Virus record (IMG/VR): IMGVR_UViG_3300035698_003861
Location: 1-23,064 of that record
DNA length: 23,064 nt
Direction: 5' to 3' (one strand)
Source of the DNA: a virus
Under the pieces are notes generated by a model. It was not told the DNA's origin, did not search any database, and saw only the letters and a list, made by a program, of their open reading frames with translations. This document shows positions 2,987 to 20,716 of this stretch, piece by piece. Numbering within the stretch: position 1 is the first letter of the stretch; each line of letters opens with the position of its first letter. A program made the translations under genes and the position numbers.

Positions 2987-3284
2987 TATCTGTATCCTCC
3001 GTCTCTAATCTTTTACGTTCTATATCTCTACTATTCCCTAAAGCTAATTCATGAAGAACAGTAAATATTTCCTTAACCTCTTTAAGATTCCTAATCCTAC
3101 CTTTAATCATATCACCAGTTATAGGATCACCTTCTAATTTCTCCAGAGCTTTCTCAGGTAGAAGAATTAAAGATAAACTCTCCTCAAGTCTAAGATCAAT
3201 CTCGTTTTGAAAATCTATAAATATAACTGTATCCATAAAATTTTCAACTTGTTTAGGAGTGCTTCTTATAGCTAATTCTTTCAT
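2976..3284 (-). CDS. Unknown small late protein downstream of portal
   Basis: 102 aa. The start codon overlaps the portal stop as ATGA, so it is translationally coupled to portal synthesis. The protein is mainly helical and charged (KALEKLEGD, LKEVKEIFTVLHEL, RDIERKRLETED). It has no Cys, no membrane segment and no motif I recognise. The position between portal and virion or scaffold genes is where small head-completion or assembly proteins often lie, but that is inference from context. The stop is TGA, one of four TGA stops seen in the late block. Confidence 0.75.
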   Translation of the reverse strand: MKELAIRSTPKQVENFMDTVIFIDFQNEIDLRLEESLSLILLPEKALEKLEGDPITGDMIKGRIRNLKEVKEIFTVLHELALGNSRDIERKRLETEDTDNDA

Positions 3285-5260
3285 ATCTGTTCCTCCACTG
3301 GTACTAAATTTCCACTCTGAACTCCCTTATCAATATCACCCTGAGACTTAATTTCAGGAGCTATAGTCCCACCCTGTTTAACAAACTGATTAACATCTTT
3401 AGCTCCTAAATTACGTGCTATATGTTTAAATATTCTAACAATATCAAACTCGCCTGCTAACTCTTCATTAGCAGTAATCTTATCAAACAGAGTTATCCAG
3501 TCTCCTGCAAAATTACCTCCTGGAACACTTCCATCTCTAATAATTATATCATAGTCTATAAGCAAATCCTCTGGAGTTACTTTAAGTCTACCACGATCAT
3601 TAGTGAGATTATCTACCCCATACTCAGCCATTAAAACATCTTGCCATTCTCCAGTTACCTTAACATAAGTATCTTTAGACATTAACTGTTGAGTATTTTT
3701 AGCAAAAAGTTCACCAATATCTTGCATACTTTGTAAGCTGATTACTCTCGCTATACGTTCAATTCTAGAAAAAGCACCAGTCTGTGTACCCTGAAACTCT
3801 TTAGATGTAAGTCTATCAGGCCCACCTTTTCTAAGACTTCCCTGCATAGCACTATCAGTAGCTCCAGTCTGCTGCATTAAATTAACTAAAAATCCTACAT
3901 CAGCTACATTAGCTTTAGTTATATCAGTAATCTTAAGTTGTTGAATAGCATTCTTAACCCCCTGTCCCCAGACAGGTCTACGAGTTCTAATTATTTTTCC
4001 AGGTTTTGGATCTTTAACATCATTAATATTAACCATGAAAGGATCAACTATAAGCATATCATTAATAGCTTTTCTAACATTCTGAATATGAGAATTAAAA
4101 AGCCAGTTAACAGTCTCCTGTAACCCATCCATTATTTCAAGTCTACTAAGTGGAGTAGAACTGTATCCATCAAACTCAGGTGCACATACACCTATTGAAA
4201 ACTTATTATGATCAAAAGCTGCAGGCCTAGCTTTTATAATAACTTCATCAGCAGCTAATCCAAATAACCATTTTTCAGGATTTTCATTATCACCAAGATT
4301 AAGTTCACTAGGTATAAGTTTATCATACATCCAAATAACATCAGTAGGACTTGTTGAACTTTCTGTTCCATCCGCACTACGTTTACTTATACCAGTTTTT
4401 CTATTTCTACTTGAATCATCTCCTGGAAATATACTAGATCGTTTATACCCTAAAGAAGCTAAATACTTAACATTAAACATATCATCATCAGTGTTTTCTG
4501 ATGTTAAGAGGTCTTGGTAATTAGTTGGAAATACCCAACCTACATATTCTCCCTTCTGAGGTTGATCTATACTAACATTTACATCTGGTAGATATAAATA
4601 AGGATCTATATTATTTAGAGCATTTCCCTCAAAAAGAACTGCATTCTCTTCTATCTCTCTTCCAGTTTTACCTAAAAGACTAGACATTCTAGCTTTCATA
4701 CCAGTTTGTTTCGTTACTCTAGTTCCAGTAACAGTTTCCCAGAAAGGTGTAACAGCTCCAAAGCCATATACTAAACTATCCCTAAATTGAGTATGTAGGT
4801 TTAAGCCTACTTTGTTTTTATTACAATGTAGAAAGATAATCTTTTCAAGTAATATAGCTCCTATAATATCCTCTGGACTATTCCCCTCATAACGAAAATA
4901 AGGTTCCTGAATAAGGGCGTTAGTTAAATAAGCCATTAGTGTTTCAAGAATAGTATAAGAATAAGGAAATACTATACTTACTGGTTTTCTAGAATCTTTA
5001 TCCTTAACACGTTTTTCACTTGTACTAAGATCTATATAACCAGTAAGAGTCTTATCTAATTTATTCCAAGACTTATGACGATTAGCCATTACTCTAGCAC
5101 TAGCATTAGCTTTAAGTAAGATTCTAGTCTTAAGCTTTTCATGAAGAGCAGAACCTGGTTTTAAATCTAATCCTTCAGGATATTCATAATCATGATTAAC
5201 AGTACTTAAAGTACTATTTCCTGATCTACCTCTTATATTTCCTGATAAATTAATTGGCAT
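3281..5260 (-). CDS. Portal protein
   Basis: 659 aa. Portal proteins form the dodecameric ring at one capsid vertex through which DNA is packaged and to which the tail attaches. Supporting features are its length; an N-terminal helical region (HEKLKTRILLKANASARVM, about residues 38-57); an aromatic-rich core with FPYSYTILETLMAYLTNAL; long helices around residues 370-420 (LEIMDGLQETVNWLFN); the Gln/Gly-rich stretch LMQQTGATDSAMQGSLRKG (about 462-480), of the kind found in P22-type and other podovirus or siphovirus portals; and a C-terminal helical region with Gln/Gly. It lies in the same operon as TerL and is followed by the scaffold-like gene, the usual order. The ribosome site is GAGGGA. There is no sign of truncation. 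The subfamily cannot be fixed by eye. Confidence 0.88.
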   Translation of the reverse strand: MPINLSGNIRGRSGNSTLSTVNHDYEYPEGLDLKPGSALHEKLKTRILLKANASARVMANRHKSWNKLDKTLTGYIDLSTSEKRVKDKDSRKPVSIVFPYSYTILETLMAYLTNALIQEPYFRYEGNSPEDIIGAILLEKIIFLHCNKNKVGLNLHTQFRDSLVYGFGAVTPFWETVTGTRVTKQTGMKARMSSLLGKTGREIEENAVLFEGNALNNIDPYLYLPDVNVSIDQPQKGEYVGWVFPTNYQDLLTSENTDDDMFNVKYLASLGYKRSSIFPGDDSSRNRKTGISKRSADGTESSTSPTDVIWMYDKLIPSELNLGDNENPEKWLFGLAADEVIIKARPAAFDHNKFSIGVCAPEFDGYSSTPLSRLEIMDGLQETVNWLFNSHIQNVRKAINDMLIVDPFMVNINDVKDPKPGKIIRTRRPVWGQGVKNAIQQLKITDITKANVADVGFLVNLMQQTGATDSAMQGSLRKGGPDRLTSKEFQGTQTGAFSRIERIARVISLQSMQDIGELFAKNTQQLMSKDTYVKVTGEWQDVLMAEYGVDNLTNDRGRLKVTPEDLLIDYDIIIRDGSVPGGNFAGDWITLFDKITANEELAGEFDIVRIFKHIARNLGAKDVNQFVKQGGTIAPEIKSQGDIDKGVQSGNLVPVEEQI

Positions 5261-7822: not shown

Positions 7823-8062
7823 TTATTCACGACTTTCTTTTATAGCTATAATAATTCTCTGCTCACTTTCTATTATAAGTTTATCAACTTCTAAATCTTT
7901 TATAGTGCATAAATCATTATGTTTATCTTTAGTTAAAACTATTTCTTCTATATGATTAAGCTTATTATTTTGAACTTTAGTTGTAATACCCATACAAGCT
8001 AATAAAAAAGTTCCTATACTAACTAAACTTACCCAGATATTTAAATCACTTTCTGTACTCAT
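7823..8062 (-). CDS. 79-aa membrane protein, holin- or spanin-like layout
   Basis: The start at 8062 was chosen because its ATG overlaps the TGA stop of TerL as ATGA and has GGAGA upstream; an upstream in-frame ATG at 8074 would add four residues. One hydrophobic segment (about residues 8-27, NIWVSLVSIGTFLLACMGI) is followed by a charged helical tail with coiled-coil character (EEIVLTKDKHNDL, EVDKLIIESEQRI). One N-terminal span plus a helical tail is seen in small phage membrane proteins such as some holins and i-spanins. It is the best candidate partner for the endolysin here, although not adjacent to it. Confidence is in the gene; the lysis role is inference. Confidence 0.7.
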   Translation of the reverse strand: MSTESDLNIWVSLVSIGTFLLACMGITTKVQNNKLNHIEEIVLTKDKHNDLCTIKDLEVDKLIIESEQRIIIAIKESRE

Positions 8063-9594
8063 GCAGTTCTCCATTCTTCCAGAAGTTTATCATTCTCATT
8101 CTCAAGTTCCTCGTAGTCATTTTCTATATTCTCTGGAATCTCATCATCACTAGGATCAAAATAATAAGCCATTTTATCCATTAGATAAGTTATGTAAGCT
8201 GTAGCATCCATAACATCCCAGAGTTTAGATCTAGGAAATGTTAAAAGTTGTTTTTCTAATGGCAGACAGTTATTCTTATTATGATACATATAGCCTAAAC
8301 GATAATTAGGAGCAAGTCCCGCTATTCTATGCTCTTTTTTACCAGTTGCATTAAGCTCTACAAACATTGGATATATGTTTCTAACTCTCATCTCCGATTC
8401 AATCGGTTGAGATATCCAAAGGTTTAGAGAGGTTACTTCAACTGCAAGAATCCGAGCATTATACATAAGGATCATATTGAACATAGAATCTAATAACTCA
8501 TCTGGTAACATCTTCCTAGAGTCTATATCCCTAACAAATATCTTATGAGTTCTTCTATCTATACTAATACAAACAACAGCACTTTCAGCACTATGAAGTT
8601 TAACAGTTTTTGCAGGATCAACTATAATAACCGTGATTAAACTTCGAGTAGAAATAGTTTCTGTATTATCCTTTTCATATATTTTAAGATTACCTACTTC
8701 CTCAGTAAAGTATTTAAAATATTCTAGTTTAAAAACTGCATCTTCAGTAGATATAGGTAAATTCATTCTTTCACGATAGAATAAATCCAGTTTACCTTTT
8801 GCCCTATGTTCCTCAACCTCAGCTTTAATTTCCTCTGTGGTCATATAAGCTGGATCATATGAATTATATTTATCATCACATATACTAAGATGTATAGATT
8901 TCCATTCTGAAGAATCTAATAACATCTGTAAAAGACAATTTTCATGTTTTATAGTATCTATATATATAAAAATAGTAGGCTCTCCATATTTATCTTCAGT
9001 TTTCATTAAATCTGAGAAGAACCAATCCTCTGTCTTTTCCCTTATAGCTTCATTCTTAACTTCTTCAGCATCTTCTAAGTCATCTATTATAATAAGCTGT
9101 GGACGTTTACCTTTCCAGTTTAATCCACGAACCTGTTGACCACTCCCACGAGGTAGGACAAATGTAGATCCAAATGCTACCCATGCAGTTTTAGAAAATG
9201 TTTCATCTATTCCATCATAGTTATTTATTTTAATATTACCAAAAAAGTTTCTAATTATACTATTAGTCATTAACTCACGCTTGATATTCTCAGTCTGCAT
9301 TTCCGCTGAAGTAGCTGAGTTAGATACATATGATATAAATTCTTTATCTCTATAAAGAATCCCTTTAGCTGCTATAGTTCTTGCTATTGTCGTTTTACCT
9401 ATTCCACGAGGAGCCGCGATGGCTATCTTATTATGGCCAGAGTCTATAAGATCAAATATCTGGTTATGCAAGATAGAAAACGGAGCAGTAAATAAATCAG
9501 GAAAGAAAGCCTTAGATAAGGATTTCGTACTGAGATAACACTGCTCCATTAACTGTTGTATTTCAGGATCTGTTTTATCTAAAGTTATATCCAA
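8059..9594 (-). CDS. terL: Terminase large subunit
   Basis: 511 aa. This is the ATPase-nuclease motor that cuts concatemeric DNA and pumps it into the prohead through the portal. The N-terminal ATPase has a Walker A motif APRGIGKTT (residues 61-69) and a Walker B motif LIIIDDLED (167-175; Asp171/Asp172, Glu174 as likely catalytic acid). The C-terminal RNase-H-like nuclease shows IVDPAKT (Asp326), AVEVTS (Glu386) and KLWDVMDA (Asp460, Asp463) as candidate metal ligands. All expected parts are present and in order. The start is a TTG at 9594, supported by GGAGG six bases upstream, lying in the end of the previous gene. The stop overlaps the next start as ATGA. The small subunit is four genes upstream rather than adjacent. 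Confidence 0.95.
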   Translation of the reverse strand: MDITLDKTDPEIQQLMEQCYLSTKSLSKAFFPDLFTAPFSILHNQIFDLIDSGHNKIAIAAPRGIGKTTIARTIAAKGILYRDKEFISYVSNSATSAEMQTENIKRELMTNSIIRNFFGNIKINNYDGIDETFSKTAWVAFGSTFVLPRGSGQQVRGLNWKGKRPQLIIIDDLEDAEEVKNEAIREKTEDWFFSDLMKTEDKYGEPTIFIYIDTIKHENCLLQMLLDSSEWKSIHLSICDDKYNSYDPAYMTTEEIKAEVEEHRAKGKLDLFYRERMNLPISTEDAVFKLEYFKYFTEEVGNLKIYEKDNTETISTRSLITVIIVDPAKTVKLHSAESAVVCISIDRRTHKIFVRDIDSRKMLPDELLDSMFNMILMYNARILAVEVTSLNLWISQPIESEMRVRNIYPMFVELNATGKKEHRIAGLAPNYRLGYMYHNKNNCLPLEKQLLTFPRSKLWDVMDATAYITYLMDKMAYYFDPSDDEIPENIENDYEELENENDKLLEEWRTA

Positions 9595-10917: not shown

Positions 10918-11327
10918 ACTAAATCTCCTGTTCTTAAAATATTTATATTATTCCGAGCTCGAATACCTGCTTGTCGATAATACAAACTATCCTTAAGCTC
11001 GTCTCCAGCTAACTCAAAGTCCTGTACTTTAAGTGCAGCTAGCATACGTCTAAACTTTTTAACCTTTTCTATTCCCATATTAAAAAGCAAGTCGATGATT
11101 ACTATTTTACGAATAGAATCAAGAGTTAGTTCCAGTAACTTATATTCTCTTCTAGCCTTAGCATAATCCATCTTAAAGAATATATGAGAAACTATCTTAG
11201 GAACCTTAGATCCATTTCTAAGGTAATGTCCCCAACCTGAAGTAAGATTACCTAAAGAGTCTTTATATATTAAATCTCTATAACCCTCATTCTTTTTTAT
11301 ATACTTAGCTCCAAGTTTATAGCTCAT
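10914..11327 (-). CDS. Endolysin, T4-type lysozyme (GH24)
   Basis: 137 aa. It hydrolyses the MurNAc-GlcNAc bond of peptidoglycan. The GH24 catalytic pattern Glu-x8-Asp-x5-Thr is intact: Glu14 in KNEGYRD, Asp23 in YKDS and Thr29 in NLTSGWGH. The C-terminal helices include LLFNMG and the AGIRARN stretch, where GH24 lysozymes usually have R-rich helices. The start at the ATG at 11327 has AAGGAG upstream; a TTG five codons earlier is less likely. There is no signal peptide, so it probably needs a holin. There is no wall-binding domain, which favours a Gram-negative host. It overlaps the small terminase gene by 11 bases. A lysis gene between small and large terminase is unusual. Confidence 0.92.
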   Translation of the reverse strand: MSYKLGAKYIKKNEGYRDLIYKDSLGNLTSGWGHYLRNGSKVPKIVSHIFFKMDYAKARREYKLLELTLDSIRKIVIIDLLFNMGIEKVKKFRRMLAALKVQDFELAGDELKDSLYYRQAGIRARNNINILRTGDLV

Positions 11328-11922
11328 TTTGCTCCTTAGCAATATCTATAACTACACAATTTTGCATGGCACTATCTTTTATTTTAGAAAGATCATCTGG
11401 TGTAAAATGTAAATGAGTATTCTGTGATCTTATGTTCTGAGTAGGTTTACCAACTTCTCTATCCATAACTTTGTTACTTTCAGCTAAGATAGTTTTAGCA
11501 TCTAATTCTTCTCCATGTACAAAGCCAGTTTCAATAGCTTCCTCTATATTCTTAAGGGCTAATGGAGCTAACGTAGCTACTCTCTTCTGTAAAGAAATAA
11601 CATCAACATCTGCAGATGCGCTCATTAAGGCTAACTCTTCTTTTACTACTGGAGAGTTCCTAACGGCTGAAACAGTTGCTACTGAGCATCCTAGATCTTC
11701 TGCTATAATATTATTTTTTGTACCTAAGAAAAGACGTCTTTTGATTTCATGATGTAGTTCTTGAAGTTCTGTGACCTGCCAAGAATTATTTCTACCAGTC
11801 TTTCTTTTATCTCTAAAATCATCAGGACTGATATTATCTCTACGTGCTTGAGCTACTAAAGGATTCTTAGATGCTACTTCTTTTTGAAAATCCCCTAAAA
11901 GTTCTTTAACCTGATTTGACAT
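11317..11922 (-). CDS. terS: Terminase small subunit (putative)
   Basis: 201 aa and the first gene of the late block, with GGAG upstream of ATG. Residues about 55-95 hold a helix-turn-helix (LGTKNNIIAEDLGCSVATVS), followed by helical oligomerisation-type segments (LQKRVATLAPLALKNIEEAIE) and LAESNKVMDREVGKP. That layout (N-terminal DNA-binding HTH, central helices, polar C-terminus) fits small terminases, which recognise the packaging site and load TerL. The call also rests on the operon containing TerL and portal. Its reading starts just inside the divergent control region. An HTH regulator of late genes is the alternative. Confidence 0.8.
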   Translation of the reverse strand: MSNQVKELLGDFQKEVASKNPLVAQARRDNISPDDFRDKRKTGRNNSWQVTELQELHHEIKRRLFLGTKNNIIAEDLGCSVATVSAVRNSPVVKEELALMSASADVDVISLQKRVATLAPLALKNIEEAIETGFVHGEELDAKTILAESNKVMDREVGKPTQNIRSQNTHLHFTPDDLSKIKDSAMQNCVVIDIAKEQNEL

Positions 11923-12240: not shown

Positions 12241-12417
12241 ATGGTATTAACTTTTAAGATTAAAAAACAACTTGACGAATATGTTATAATTACCAAACTT
12301 GATAACATACGTATCGAATCAAAATGTTATTATACGGATAACTTGCAAGATGCAAGAATAACAATGCAAAGTATGATCAATCAAGAATATCGAAAAATAA
12401 GCATCACAAGAATATAA
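12241..12417 (+). CDS. First early gene, 58-aa unknown protein
   Basis: ATG preceded by AAAGGGG and placed directly downstream of the early promoter. The protein (MVLTFKIKKQLDEYVIITKL at its start) has an alternating beta N-terminus, one Cys and a basic helical end (DARITMQSMINQEYRK). No known motif. Being first after a strong promoter, it may be a host-modulating product, but that is inference. Its TAA stop is the first three bases of a perfect hairpin. Confidence 0.65.
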   Translation: MVLTFKIKKQLDEYVIITKLDNIRIESKCYYTDNLQDARITMQSMINQEYRKISITRI

Positions 12418-12437
12418 GCTTGAATAACTCAAGCTTA
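12415..12437 (+). other. Intergenic hairpin after first early gene
   Basis: Perfect dyad: TAAGCTTGA (12415-12423), loop ATAAC, TCAAGCTTA (12429-12437). It starts at the stop codon. It is followed by AAAACC rather than a T tract, so it is not a standard terminator. mRNA end protection or processing is more likely. Confidence 0.7.
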
Positions 12438-12462: not shown

Positions 12463-12843
12463 ATGGGTATATTAAAACTTGATGAAAACGGCGACCTGGC
12501 AAAGGGAAGTATTATAAGTAAAGCATGGAAAACCACCCTTGATATTGAAACGGGAGAAAGTATTAAGATGAGTATGCAAGTTGACTTATCCGGTATGTCA
12601 ATCGATCAACTTGTTGAGAAAACAATGGGAAGTCTTATTATAACGAGACAGGCGCAAGAAAGAAAGGTAACTTTGGAAACGCTCAAGCAAGTTAATAATG
12701 GCGTTATACATTATTCAATGATGGGAAAAGCAATCAAGGACCCCATTAAAGAGCGTGAAGAAGTATATAACAACGTTGAGACAATGCCAAAAGCGGATAT
12801 CATTGCATTACATGCAAGGATTGCAAAACTTATACAAAGTTAA
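12463..12843 (+). CDS. Unknown 126-aa early protein
   Basis: ATG preceded by GAGGAGAA. The protein begins with beta-type segments (residues about 1-45, AWKTTLDIETGESIKMSMQV), then helical regions (SIDQLVEKTMGSLI; ITRQAQERKVTLETLKQV) and a C-terminal helix (ADIIALHARIAKLIQS). There is no Cys, membrane span or known motif. Codon use here contains more CG-containing codons than the small genes after 13.7 kb. It is flanked on both sides by strong hairpins. The overall layout (beta start, helical end) is loosely like the 122-aa protein at 18725, but the residue match is too weak to claim homology. Confidence 0.75.
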   Translation: MGILKLDENGDLAKGSIISKAWKTTLDIETGESIKMSMQVDLSGMSIDQLVEKTMGSLIITRQAQERKVTLETLKQVNNGVIHYSMMGKAIKDPIKEREEVYNNVETMPKADIIALHARIAKLIQS

Positions 12844-12844
12844 A

Positions 12845-12891
12845 TTCTTATCTTGCTTATAAGTTTAAAAGCTTATAAGTAAGAATAAGAA
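12845..12891 (+). other. Long intergenic hairpin, 19-bp stem
   Basis: Starts one base after the stop of the 126-aa gene. The arms are 12845-12863 and 12872-12891: TTCTTAT pairs with ATAAGAA, and CTTGCTTATAAG pairs with CTTATAAGTAAG (one G-T), with a single bulged A at 12884 and an 8-base loop. No T tract follows. Confidence 0.75.
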
Positions 12892-13188: not shown

Positions 13189-13497
13189 ATGGAAAAAACC
13201 GTTGATGAAGCATTGAAGCAAGATACGGAAAAACTTAAAAAAGTACACATGGATATTTTCAACTTGCAAGAAAAAATAAATCCGTTAATAGTTTTGCGAA
13301 GCAAGTTAAGAGTATTAGTTGAGGAAAAACAGAGAGAGATATTTATCAGAGATAAGGGTATAACTATATGTAAAAGCAAGTTGGAAAAGGGAGTTAAGAA
13401 AAAAGACAGTATTGAGGATATAGTCGGAAAAGTCAGCAAAATGACACAAGATGAAAAGAGACAGTTTTTAATTATGCTAGAAAAGCGTAACTTGTAA
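13189..13497 (+). CDS. Coiled-coil FIRDK-family protein A
   Basis: 102 aa, with ATG preceded by AAAAGGAA. Helical, charged and coiled-coil-prone (residues about 1-60), with FIRDK at about 54-58, a Lys-rich linker (KLEKGVKKKDS) and a C-terminal KMTQDEKRQFLIML. The same order, coiled coil then FIRDK then basic linker then KMTxxE, recurs in the 115-aa protein at 14713, so the two are likely paralogues. Function is unknown; nucleic-acid or host-protein binding would fit the basic linker. Its stop codon lies within the first GTAACCC repeat of the next element. A 110-aa antisense frame over the same bases is treated as a shadow. Confidence 0.75.
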   Translation: MEKTVDEALKQDTEKLKKVHMDIFNLQEKINPLIVLRSKLRVLVEEKQREIFIRDKGITICKSKLEKGVKKKDSIEDIVGKVSKMTQDEKRQFLIMLEKRNL

Positions 13498-13657
13498 CCC
13501 AATGTAACCGTGTAACCCGTAACTTGTAACCCAACCGGTATATATATATTATAATTGAATGAAGCAAGATATGGAGGTTAGATATATTCTCAACTTGCTG
13601 TGTTCAATCCTTCCAAATGGGGGGGGGATGGGTTACGGGTTACGGGTTACGGGTTAC
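13494..13657. repeat. GTAACCC / GGGTTAC inverted-repeat region with G-tract
   Basis: The left side carries GTAACCC at 13494-13500, 13512-13518 and 13526-13532, with partial GTAACC/GTAAC copies between. The right side carries four exact tandem GGGTTAC units (13630-13657) preceded by a nine-G run (13619-13627). The two sides are complementary, and an AT-rich segment (TATATATATATTATAAT, about 13539-13555) lies between them. The G-rich strand has five or more G3 tracts with short loops, the textbook pattern for a G-quadruplex. No convincing gene covers it. A promoter-like pair (TTGTAA, 17 bases, TATTAT) falls inside. A replication origin, a telomere-like or recombination element, or a transcript-level switch are possible roles. 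Confidence 0.75.
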
Positions 13658-13714
13658 GCATATACAAGATAAAAAAAGAAGTATTGGTGTTAATAGCTAT
13701 AAAAGGAGACAGTT

Positions 13715-14712: not shown

Positions 14713-15060
14713 ATGGAAACTAATAAACTTAATAGAAAGATAATCTTAAACGATGAGATTATTAGTAACTTACACAAGCGGATTGGTAGACTAAAGGGGA
14801 CGTTAGTTCCACTTACAAGTAGGTTAGAGGGGCTTATAGAAGAAACTCTTGAGTTAAAGAAAGATCAGTTTATAAGAGATAAGAAAGTTACAGTTGTTAG
14901 GAAGAAAAAAGCTCCTAAGAAGAGGGCTAGAGTGTCAACACGTGAGAGGGAGTTAGCTACTATGCAAAAGTTTCTGGATAAAATGACTAAATTAACTCCA
15001 GAAGAATTAATTCCAATAATGCACATCGTTAGAAAGGGATATGATTATGACGATGACTAA
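14713..15060 (+). CDS. Coiled-coil FIRDK-family protein B
   Basis: 115 aa, with ATG preceded by AAGGAGAG. Paralogue-like to the 102-aa protein at 13189: an N-terminal coiled coil (residues about 15-52), QFIRDKKVTVV (about 53-63), a highly basic linker (RKKKAPKKRARVSTRER) and KMTKLTPEELIPIMHIV near the end, closing with an acidic DYDDD tail. The basic linker suggests nucleic-acid contact. Its last bases contain the start of the next gene. Confidence 0.75.
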   Translation: METNKLNRKIILNDEIISNLHKRIGRLKGTLVPLTSRLEGLIEETLELKKDQFIRDKKVTVVRKKKAPKKRARVSTRERELATMQKFLDKMTKLTPEELIPIMHIVRKGYDYDDD

Positions 15061-16586: not shown

Positions 16587-16991
16587 ATGCCAAATACGTA
16601 TGTAGCCAGTTTGCGTTTAAACGCTAGGGTCTTAGCTTCTATTTACAAGAGCTTTATTAAATCAGGAGTTGAGGTTAATTCTATTAATGAGTTAGTTAGA
16701 TTAAGTCTAAACTCTTATTTAGAGTTTTTAGTAGAAATGGATGTTATAGATAAAATCGACTTAGAGGATGAAGCTTGGAATATCCTTAACAATGCTGGTC
16801 TTATAACTAAAAGAGCTAAGGAGTCAAATAAAACTATTTTAAGAAAAGTATTACAGATAGAATCTATGAAAGGAGATTCTATGCAAGAGTATATAGATGG
16901 GAGAAAGATTACTAAGGGAAATCAACAGGGATTTAAAAAGGATAGTCCTGAAGTTTTAAAAGCTTTAGAAATGTTAAATAAGGAGGATTAG
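16587..16991 (+). CDS. Putative ribbon-helix-helix regulator
   Basis: 134 aa. An N-terminal strand (YVASLRLN) followed by two helices (ARVLASIYKSFIKSG and SINELVRLSLNSYLEFL) matches the ribbon-helix-helix layout of Arc/MetJ-type DNA-binding proteins, in which paired strands enter the major groove. Residues about 50-134 form a longer charged tail (NKTILRKVLQIESMKGDS; KGNQQGFKKDS) that may add oligomer or partner contacts. It has its own promoter and a dyad between promoter and start, which suits autoregulation. The ribosome site is weak (CAGG). Fold assignment is by secondary-structure rhythm; no search was run. Confidence 0.6.
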   Translation: MPNTYVASLRLNARVLASIYKSFIKSGVEVNSINELVRLSLNSYLEFLVEMDVIDKIDLEDEAWNILNNAGLITKRAKESNKTILRKVLQIESMKGDSMQEYIDGRKITKGNQQGFKKDSPEVLKALEMLNKED

Positions 16992-19879: not shown

Positions 19880-20716
19880 ATGGGAAAACGTGCAGGTATA
19901 ATGTTATGATATCCTTTTGAAGAAAAGCGTTTAGCTAAGTGGAAGTATCCAGTTATAGTCCAACCTAAGCTTGATGGTGAGCGTTGTCGAGCCATAGTTA
20001 AAAATCACAAAGTTACTCTTTTGTCTAGTGAGGAAAATGAGATAACAAGTGTACCTCATATTAACGACTGGTTAAACCGTACCTGTAATGATATAGAGCT
20101 AGATGGAGAACTCTATACACATGGACTTAGTTTTGAAGAAATTCATTCCAGAGTTTCAAGAACTAAGAATATCCATCCTGATCATAAGCAGATTCAATAC
20201 CATGTTTTTGATATAATAGATGAACGTGAACAGTATGTTAGATTAGATTATCTTAATAAGCTAAGAGACTCTCTATCTATTAAGGTAGTTAAGTGGTATG
20301 CTGTTATAGATTTTAGTGGATTAATGGAACTGTATAAACATATTTTAGATCAAGACTATGAGGGGATTATAGTTAGACACCCGACAGCTTCTTATATCCG
20401 CAAGCGTTCTATCTATATGATGAAGTTTAAACCTAAGAAAGATGATTGGTATACTGTAGTTGACTATAAAGAGGAGATAGATAAAGATGGAAATCCTAAG
20501 AACTCTCTTGGCGCTATTATTTGCACTAGTGATGGTGGGGATAGGTTCTCAGTTGGTAGCGGTTTTACTAGAGCTAATCGGGATAAATACTGGCTCATGC
20601 GAGAGGGGTTAGCAGGCATGCTTTGTCATGTCCAGTATCAACATATAACTCCTGGCAAAGGCGTACCTAGATTTCCAATATTTGTGGAGTTACATAGTAT
20701 AGATAAATTATTCTAA
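19880..20716 (+). CDS. ATP-dependent DNA ligase, interrupted by in-frame TGA at codon 10
   Basis: Seals nicks by forming a lysyl-AMP intermediate. Read from the ATG at 19880 the frame gives 278 residues with one TGA (19907-19909) in place of residue 10. Beyond it all ligase motifs are intact: motif I KLDGER (Lys30 catalytic, 30-35), ELDGEL (about 74-79), FDI (110-112), EGIIVR (161-166) and KFKP (182-185), then an OB-fold domain with GRGF-like SVGSGFT and a C-terminal VPRFPIFVELHSI. Length fits the minimal phage ligase class. No ATG, GTG or TTG occurs between the TGA and the catalytic Lys, so the enzyme cannot be made by a downstream start. The open part alone (20021-20716) lacks motif I. Either the TGA is read through, is a sequencing error or a recent mutation, or initiation is non-canonical. 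The ribosome site (AGGG) is weak. Confidence 0.85.

Follow-up and report, generated by a model that had tools for sequence, protein, structure and literature searches.

A dyad-symmetric short-repeat element of conserved layout and changing sequence, a candidate replication origin or genome end in lytic tailed phages

In the SaPI origin of replication, repeats lie on both sides of an AT-rich region. In phage T7, the terminal-repeat region carries the SRL and SRR heptamer arrays, and Chung et al. reportedly described in 1990 a palindrome or hairpin near the direct terminal repeats. On pSM19035, the ribbon-helix-helix protein Omega is the reader of unspaced 7-bp repeats that adjoin promoters (PMC9499535); it binds WATCACW and works with ParA.

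The element that we describe here combines short repeats with a segment of A/T-rich or poly-A DNA, as the SaPI, plasmid iteron and PLE origins do, but its arrays are inverted over an imperfect palindrome of ~170-400 bp with G/C runs. It shares with pSM19035 parS the short-repeat arrays next to promoters and a protein of ribbon-helix-helix fold (here a candidate reader), whereas its units differ from phage to phage, an A/T core lies between its two facing arrays, and we recognised no ParA. Its likeness to the T7 region lies in the palindrome or hairpin and the short-repeat arrays; a similar element is tied to a genome end only in the distant phage Kuura, and in the window, which is a fragment, no terminal repeat was found. 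Replication genes of their own are found in these lytic phages, yet no initiator or origin was recognised for them in our analysis, and the element is a concrete candidate for an origin or a terminus.

The element fills the gap between two early genes. The window, by which we mean the whole stretch of DNA analysed (23,064 nucleotides, IMG/VR record IMGVR_UViG_3300035698_003861), has its late genes on the minus strand and its early genes on the plus strand from ~12.4 kb (Table 1), and the element is ~1.6 kb from the start of terS at 11922. A preliminary description, made by a model from the sequence, had placed a GTAACCC/GGGTTAC inverted repeat with a run of nine G at 13494-13657. We found it as described and far beyond chance: GGGTTAC occurred 10 times on the two strands of the window against 1.39 expected, and 10 was reached in none of 100 shuffles. 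The repeats lie where they had been placed, but the true start of the element is slightly earlier, at about 13486. Six GTAAC-type units make up the left array, three of them exact GTAACCC (13494, 13512 and 13526) and three partial GTAAC (13487, 13504 and 13519), with irregular spacings of 7, 10, 8, 7 and 7, and the stop codon (13495-13497) of an ORF at 13189-13497 falls within the array. On the right, the units start at 13630, 13637, 13644 and 13651, a strict spacing of 7. The G9 is the sole run of G or C of at least 7 within the window. Complementarity of the arms was 88% over 25 nt and 80% over 30 nt. The AT-rich stretch that had been claimed between them holds for 13537-13560 (12.5% GC), to which the strongly AT-rich part is limited, and not for the whole 82-bp core (29% GC vs 33% window-wide). 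An array of short repeats adjoining an AT-rich opening segment, the arrangement of iteron origins, is thus present, with an AT segment that in the window is short.

Table 1. Features of the repeat element and of its surroundings in the window.
Feature	Position	Strand	Remarks
Portal-like gene	3281-5260	-	late gene
Large terminase	8059-9594	-	late gene
Small terminase-like HTH protein (terS)	11317-11922	-	assigned by synteny with large terminase and homology to relatives; late side of divergent junction
Second inverted repeat	arms 12397-12427 / 12830-12860		around early ORF 12463-12843; context, not part of the element
Left iteron array	13486-13536	+	GTAAC-type units, terminating in CCCAACC
Core	13537-13618		(TA)n-rich at 13537-13560, then nested TTGAA..TTCAA / GCAAG..CTTGC hairpin
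G9 run	13619-13627	+	inner edge of right arm
Right iteron array	13630-13658	+	four exact tandem GGGTTAC, inverted relative to left array
Ribbon-helix-helix-like protein	16587-16991	+	candidate iteron binder; downstream of element, homologues likewise in relatives
Ligase	20021-20716	+	early gene
Exonuclease	right end of window	+	early gene

The element was conserved in layout and place. We gathered relatives with a terminase search (55 loci), to which a terS search added more; loci collected afterwards with a ligase query formed a separate check set. At the matching place, inverted repeats with arms far apart enclosed an A/T-rich core in L072, L073, L074, L075/L078, L076/L077, L079, L017, L029 and L091 (a Desulfofustis phage), and the check set added L105, L108, L109, L110/L111 and L112. 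The same layout and place were seen in 14 of the 15 distinct relatives holding the region, a count from which we left out L026 (stops short), L080 (1,250 bp of the early side only) and L065 (weak repeat). L107 had no inverted repeat above threshold, and no counterpart was seen in L046 and L054, loci that may not hold the early region. The shared layout consists of inverted arrays of 6-11-mers, G/C runs and an A/T core, and the shared place, 1-2.5 kb away from the terminase small-subunit gene, is an interval between the first of the early genes. In most whole genomes we counted 1-2 such inverted repeats; randomised versions had 0-0.2. Each stretch checked combined a G/C run of at least 4 with (TA)n or an A/T homopolymer, the exception being a misplaced PaMx41 stretch, and G/C runs of 4 or more recur near the arms. 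The automatic PaMx41 match (42480-42583) was rejected as a smaller hairpin; the likely counterpart straddles the ends of that record. An ORF flanked by an inverted repeat also recurs between terS and the array element in many relatives. As judged from these comparisons, the element is not an oddity of one contig.

The sequence of the repeat unit was almost wholly different between phages, and the two arms changed together. The unit is GTCAGCC in L029, TTAGTCC-like in L075, TTATTATG in L077 and TGTATGCC in L108. Between the near-identical phages L076 and L077 the number of repeats differs, on the right side only. Random variation in repeat number without positional conservation had been named as evidence against a functional element; number does vary, but position is conserved. 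A kept layout with changing repeat letters fits a start site for genome copying or packaging, with a matching phage protein as its recogniser. A single-copy element whose form is kept while its repeats are replaced, together with an apparent reader protein, offers a system for studying joint change of a DNA-binding protein and its iterons.

The best candidate for the reader is a protein encoded downstream of the element. In its predicted structure two helices (pLDDT above 90) come after a short extended strand at the N terminus, and almost all of its VIA-align matches were ribbon-helix-helix proteins (NikR, antitoxins, Arc, PutA and CopG; Z 4-5, residues 2-54). Pfam returned no ribbon-helix-helix family, nor did profile searching of solved structures return such a match, and Foldseek by itself was weak; the assignment comes from structural alignment. 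A protein of the Omega fold is thus present, and the family occurs in the close relatives in which it could be looked for (L017, L072, L073, L074, L075/L078, L077, L091, L029, L079, L105, L107, L108 and L109). The presumed DNA-reading strand of the protein varies between phages. L072 and L074 have the same QTRCKRT strand and also have GTATGCTACCCC in common, a pairing that is suggestive of a match between reader and array. By HMM, the family was not found in PaMx41, Kuura, Mel-JY34, the Vibrio phage or MW202489, and it therefore cannot be a general binder of such elements. We also considered TerS as reader of the arrays and found this unlikely, as its HTH is conserved and the arrays are not: the TerS proteins of L026, L021 and L027 are 62-86% identical to that of L066, HTH included, and the arrays of L066, L021 and L027 are unrelated (the L026 contig ends before the element).

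The preliminary description had suggested that iterons flanking an AT-rich core mark a replication origin. This is the best-supported reading, given the conserved position and architecture, and a role as genome terminus is its serious rival. We give about an even chance to the element being an iteron-type, dyad-symmetric replication origin; an origin ranks first and a genome end or packaging site second, and both may be one site. We infer three events, namely binding of the ribbon-helix-helix protein to the arrays, melting of the core and the start of replication at the element. In this mechanism the element would serve a lytic tailed phage as a cis site of iteron type and dyad symmetry, and a phage-specific DNA-binding protein, of which the ribbon-helix-helix protein is the best candidate, would coat both inverted arrays as duplex DNA, as Omega of pSM19035 coats its heptads. 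The nucleoprotein complex would assist both in opening the A/T-rich core and in loading the phage's own DUF3987 primase-helicase and PolA. The 46-kb relative G002 has a replication set with a DUF3987 primase-helicase, a PolA to which a UDG domain is fused, Sak4, a ligase and an exonuclease; a ParB-N domain joined to a DNA methyltransferase is encoded in its replication region (L082, 11184-12521). We recognised for these phages neither RepA_N nor a SaPI-type Rep nor any other known initiator.

Several observations count against an origin. The core of the window is modestly AT-rich, there is no clear promoter past the right arm of the window, and L107 has the ribbon-helix-helix gene without the repeat. 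A change in skew, proposed earlier as a check, was seen in the window at ~12.2 kb, but it coincides with the divergent gene boundary. The skew minimum of G002 also lies at a divergent gene boundary and is explained by transcription. Because of these positions, skew cannot separate replication from transcription.

The terminal-repeat boundary of Kuura, which falls inside a similar element, would point to packaging and makes this the main rival. According to this explanation, which we regard as possible but tentative, the element is a genome-end or packaging site at which the terminase cuts in or beside the palindrome to give direct terminal repeats, and the arrays and hairpin help to duplicate the terminal repeat, as has been proposed for the T7 'hairpin' end. 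In Kuura, PhageTerm identified a direct terminal repeat of 606 bp (PMC9959647), which is exact in the sequence record. An A12 core with GGGCAGT arrays is seen at 43037-43208 (L096), and the boundary, 43208, falls at a run of G, with this core on one side and an inverted ACTGCCC unit of the similar element on the other. The linear records of PaMx41, PaP2 and 119X start at the centre of a similar element, and the proximity of the element to terS and the recurrence of G/C runs at the inner edges also favour packaging. However, the Kuura element was chosen by eye, and Kuura is distant (its primase-helicase is 26% identical to that of Mel-JY34) and lacks the ribbon-helix-helix gene by HMM. The record starts of the PaP2 type may reflect convention or a hairpin that is hard to sequence, and PaMx32 and 20Aug470 read through. 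The conservation of TerS beside unrelated arrays also argues against a packaging signal. A genome end at this site is thus seen in the distant Kuura and suggestive in PaMx41, PaP2 and 119X; since these phages are distant and without the ribbon-helix-helix family by HMM, they provide a lead for the window and not a result. Aeromonas phage P5 had neither a terminal repeat nor a recognised counterpart of the element.

An early promoter next to the right arm was common in the relatives and is among the observations in favour of an origin. We found a near-consensus promoter within about 120 bp after the right arm in 10 relatives (L072, L074, L075, L029, L017, L092, L105, L108, L109 and Tiera). In Tiera (L097), two near-identical direct repeats of ~70 bp at ~43993 and 44065 lie in the right part of the element and are followed by TTGACA-17-TATAAT. 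A sigma-70 scan after the right arm of the window gave no convincing promoter. These promoters, the fold of the candidate protein and the precedent of Omega, whose 7-bp repeats overlap promoters (PMC9499535), are what an operator or partition-like array would predict, in which the protein binds the repeats and controls the adjacent early promoter or positions the genome as Omega does on the heptads of pSM19035. We consider this unlikely: paired arrays around an A/T core exceed the needs of an operator, the window has no clear promoter, and among the 10 early proteins of G002 that were scanned (the window being a fragment) no ParA-type ATPase was recognised as a partner, only the ParB-N/methyltransferase fusion. 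A possible but rather improbable reading is a composite locus that would serve as origin, genome terminus and early-promoter hub, with a repeat 'barcode' replaced wholesale along with a fast-changing ribbon-helix-helix reader and an architecture that a broad range of PolA/DUF3987 phages, perhaps with Fredfastierviridae relatives among them, would have retained.

The pairing of the arms did not appear to be what is selected. A cruciform or large RNA hairpin had been suggested from the long complementary arms, and the element strand of the window does fold (z -7.2, and -8.8 with each half shuffled separately), as do the stretches of the relatives, which form hairpins of nearly full length (z from -3.8 to -16.5, again with each half shuffled by itself). 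However, an RNA hairpin on the early strand would favour G-U pairs, and the stem mismatches comprised 40 of GU type and 40 of AC type, without a G-U excess, which argues for duplex DNA. Between the arms of L108 and L109 there were 6 one-sided changes and no compensatory ones; one further pair was altered on both sides and is not paired in both. Pairing was thus kept through neither compensatory nor G-U changes, and an Rfam search gave no match. Because the arm pairing has no G-U bias and no compensatory changes, we believe that selection probably acts on duplex DNA and not on an RNA hairpin; the one-sided change of repeat number in L076/L077 and the one-sided changes in L108/L109 fit binding sites within duplex DNA. 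On this evidence it is highly improbable that a large structured RNA or cruciform acts through its base pairing itself, though the DNA may still form a cruciform. The G-quadruplex pattern noted earlier (G3-N4 four times) is present in the window but is not conserved: among the 14 stretches scanned, four G3+ tracts with N1-7 loops were found on the early strand of the window only, and the distant relative L095 has the pattern on the other strand.

Searches beginning from the window itself returned little. BLASTN of the element region against named phages gave no match, protein queries with ORF 13189-13497 and with the terS of the window found no relatives, and a GTDB scan with terL confirmed no relative, so that no host can be assigned to the window phage. 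The small ORFs 13189-13497 and 14713-15060 contain FIRDKGITI and FIRDKKVTV, respectively, and may be distant paralogues, with weak BLASTP support (E 0.009).

The same 7-mer also occurs elsewhere. Thirteen viral contigs with three exact GGGTTAC units belong to other phages and have it in a different context, often with the array just upstream of a start codon; we set them aside as not homologous. In L005, L007, L008, L009, L011, L012, L013, L014 and L016, at least three tandem GTAACCC lie directly upstream of a start codon. A heptamer that contains TAA, repeated in tandem, places a stop in every frame.
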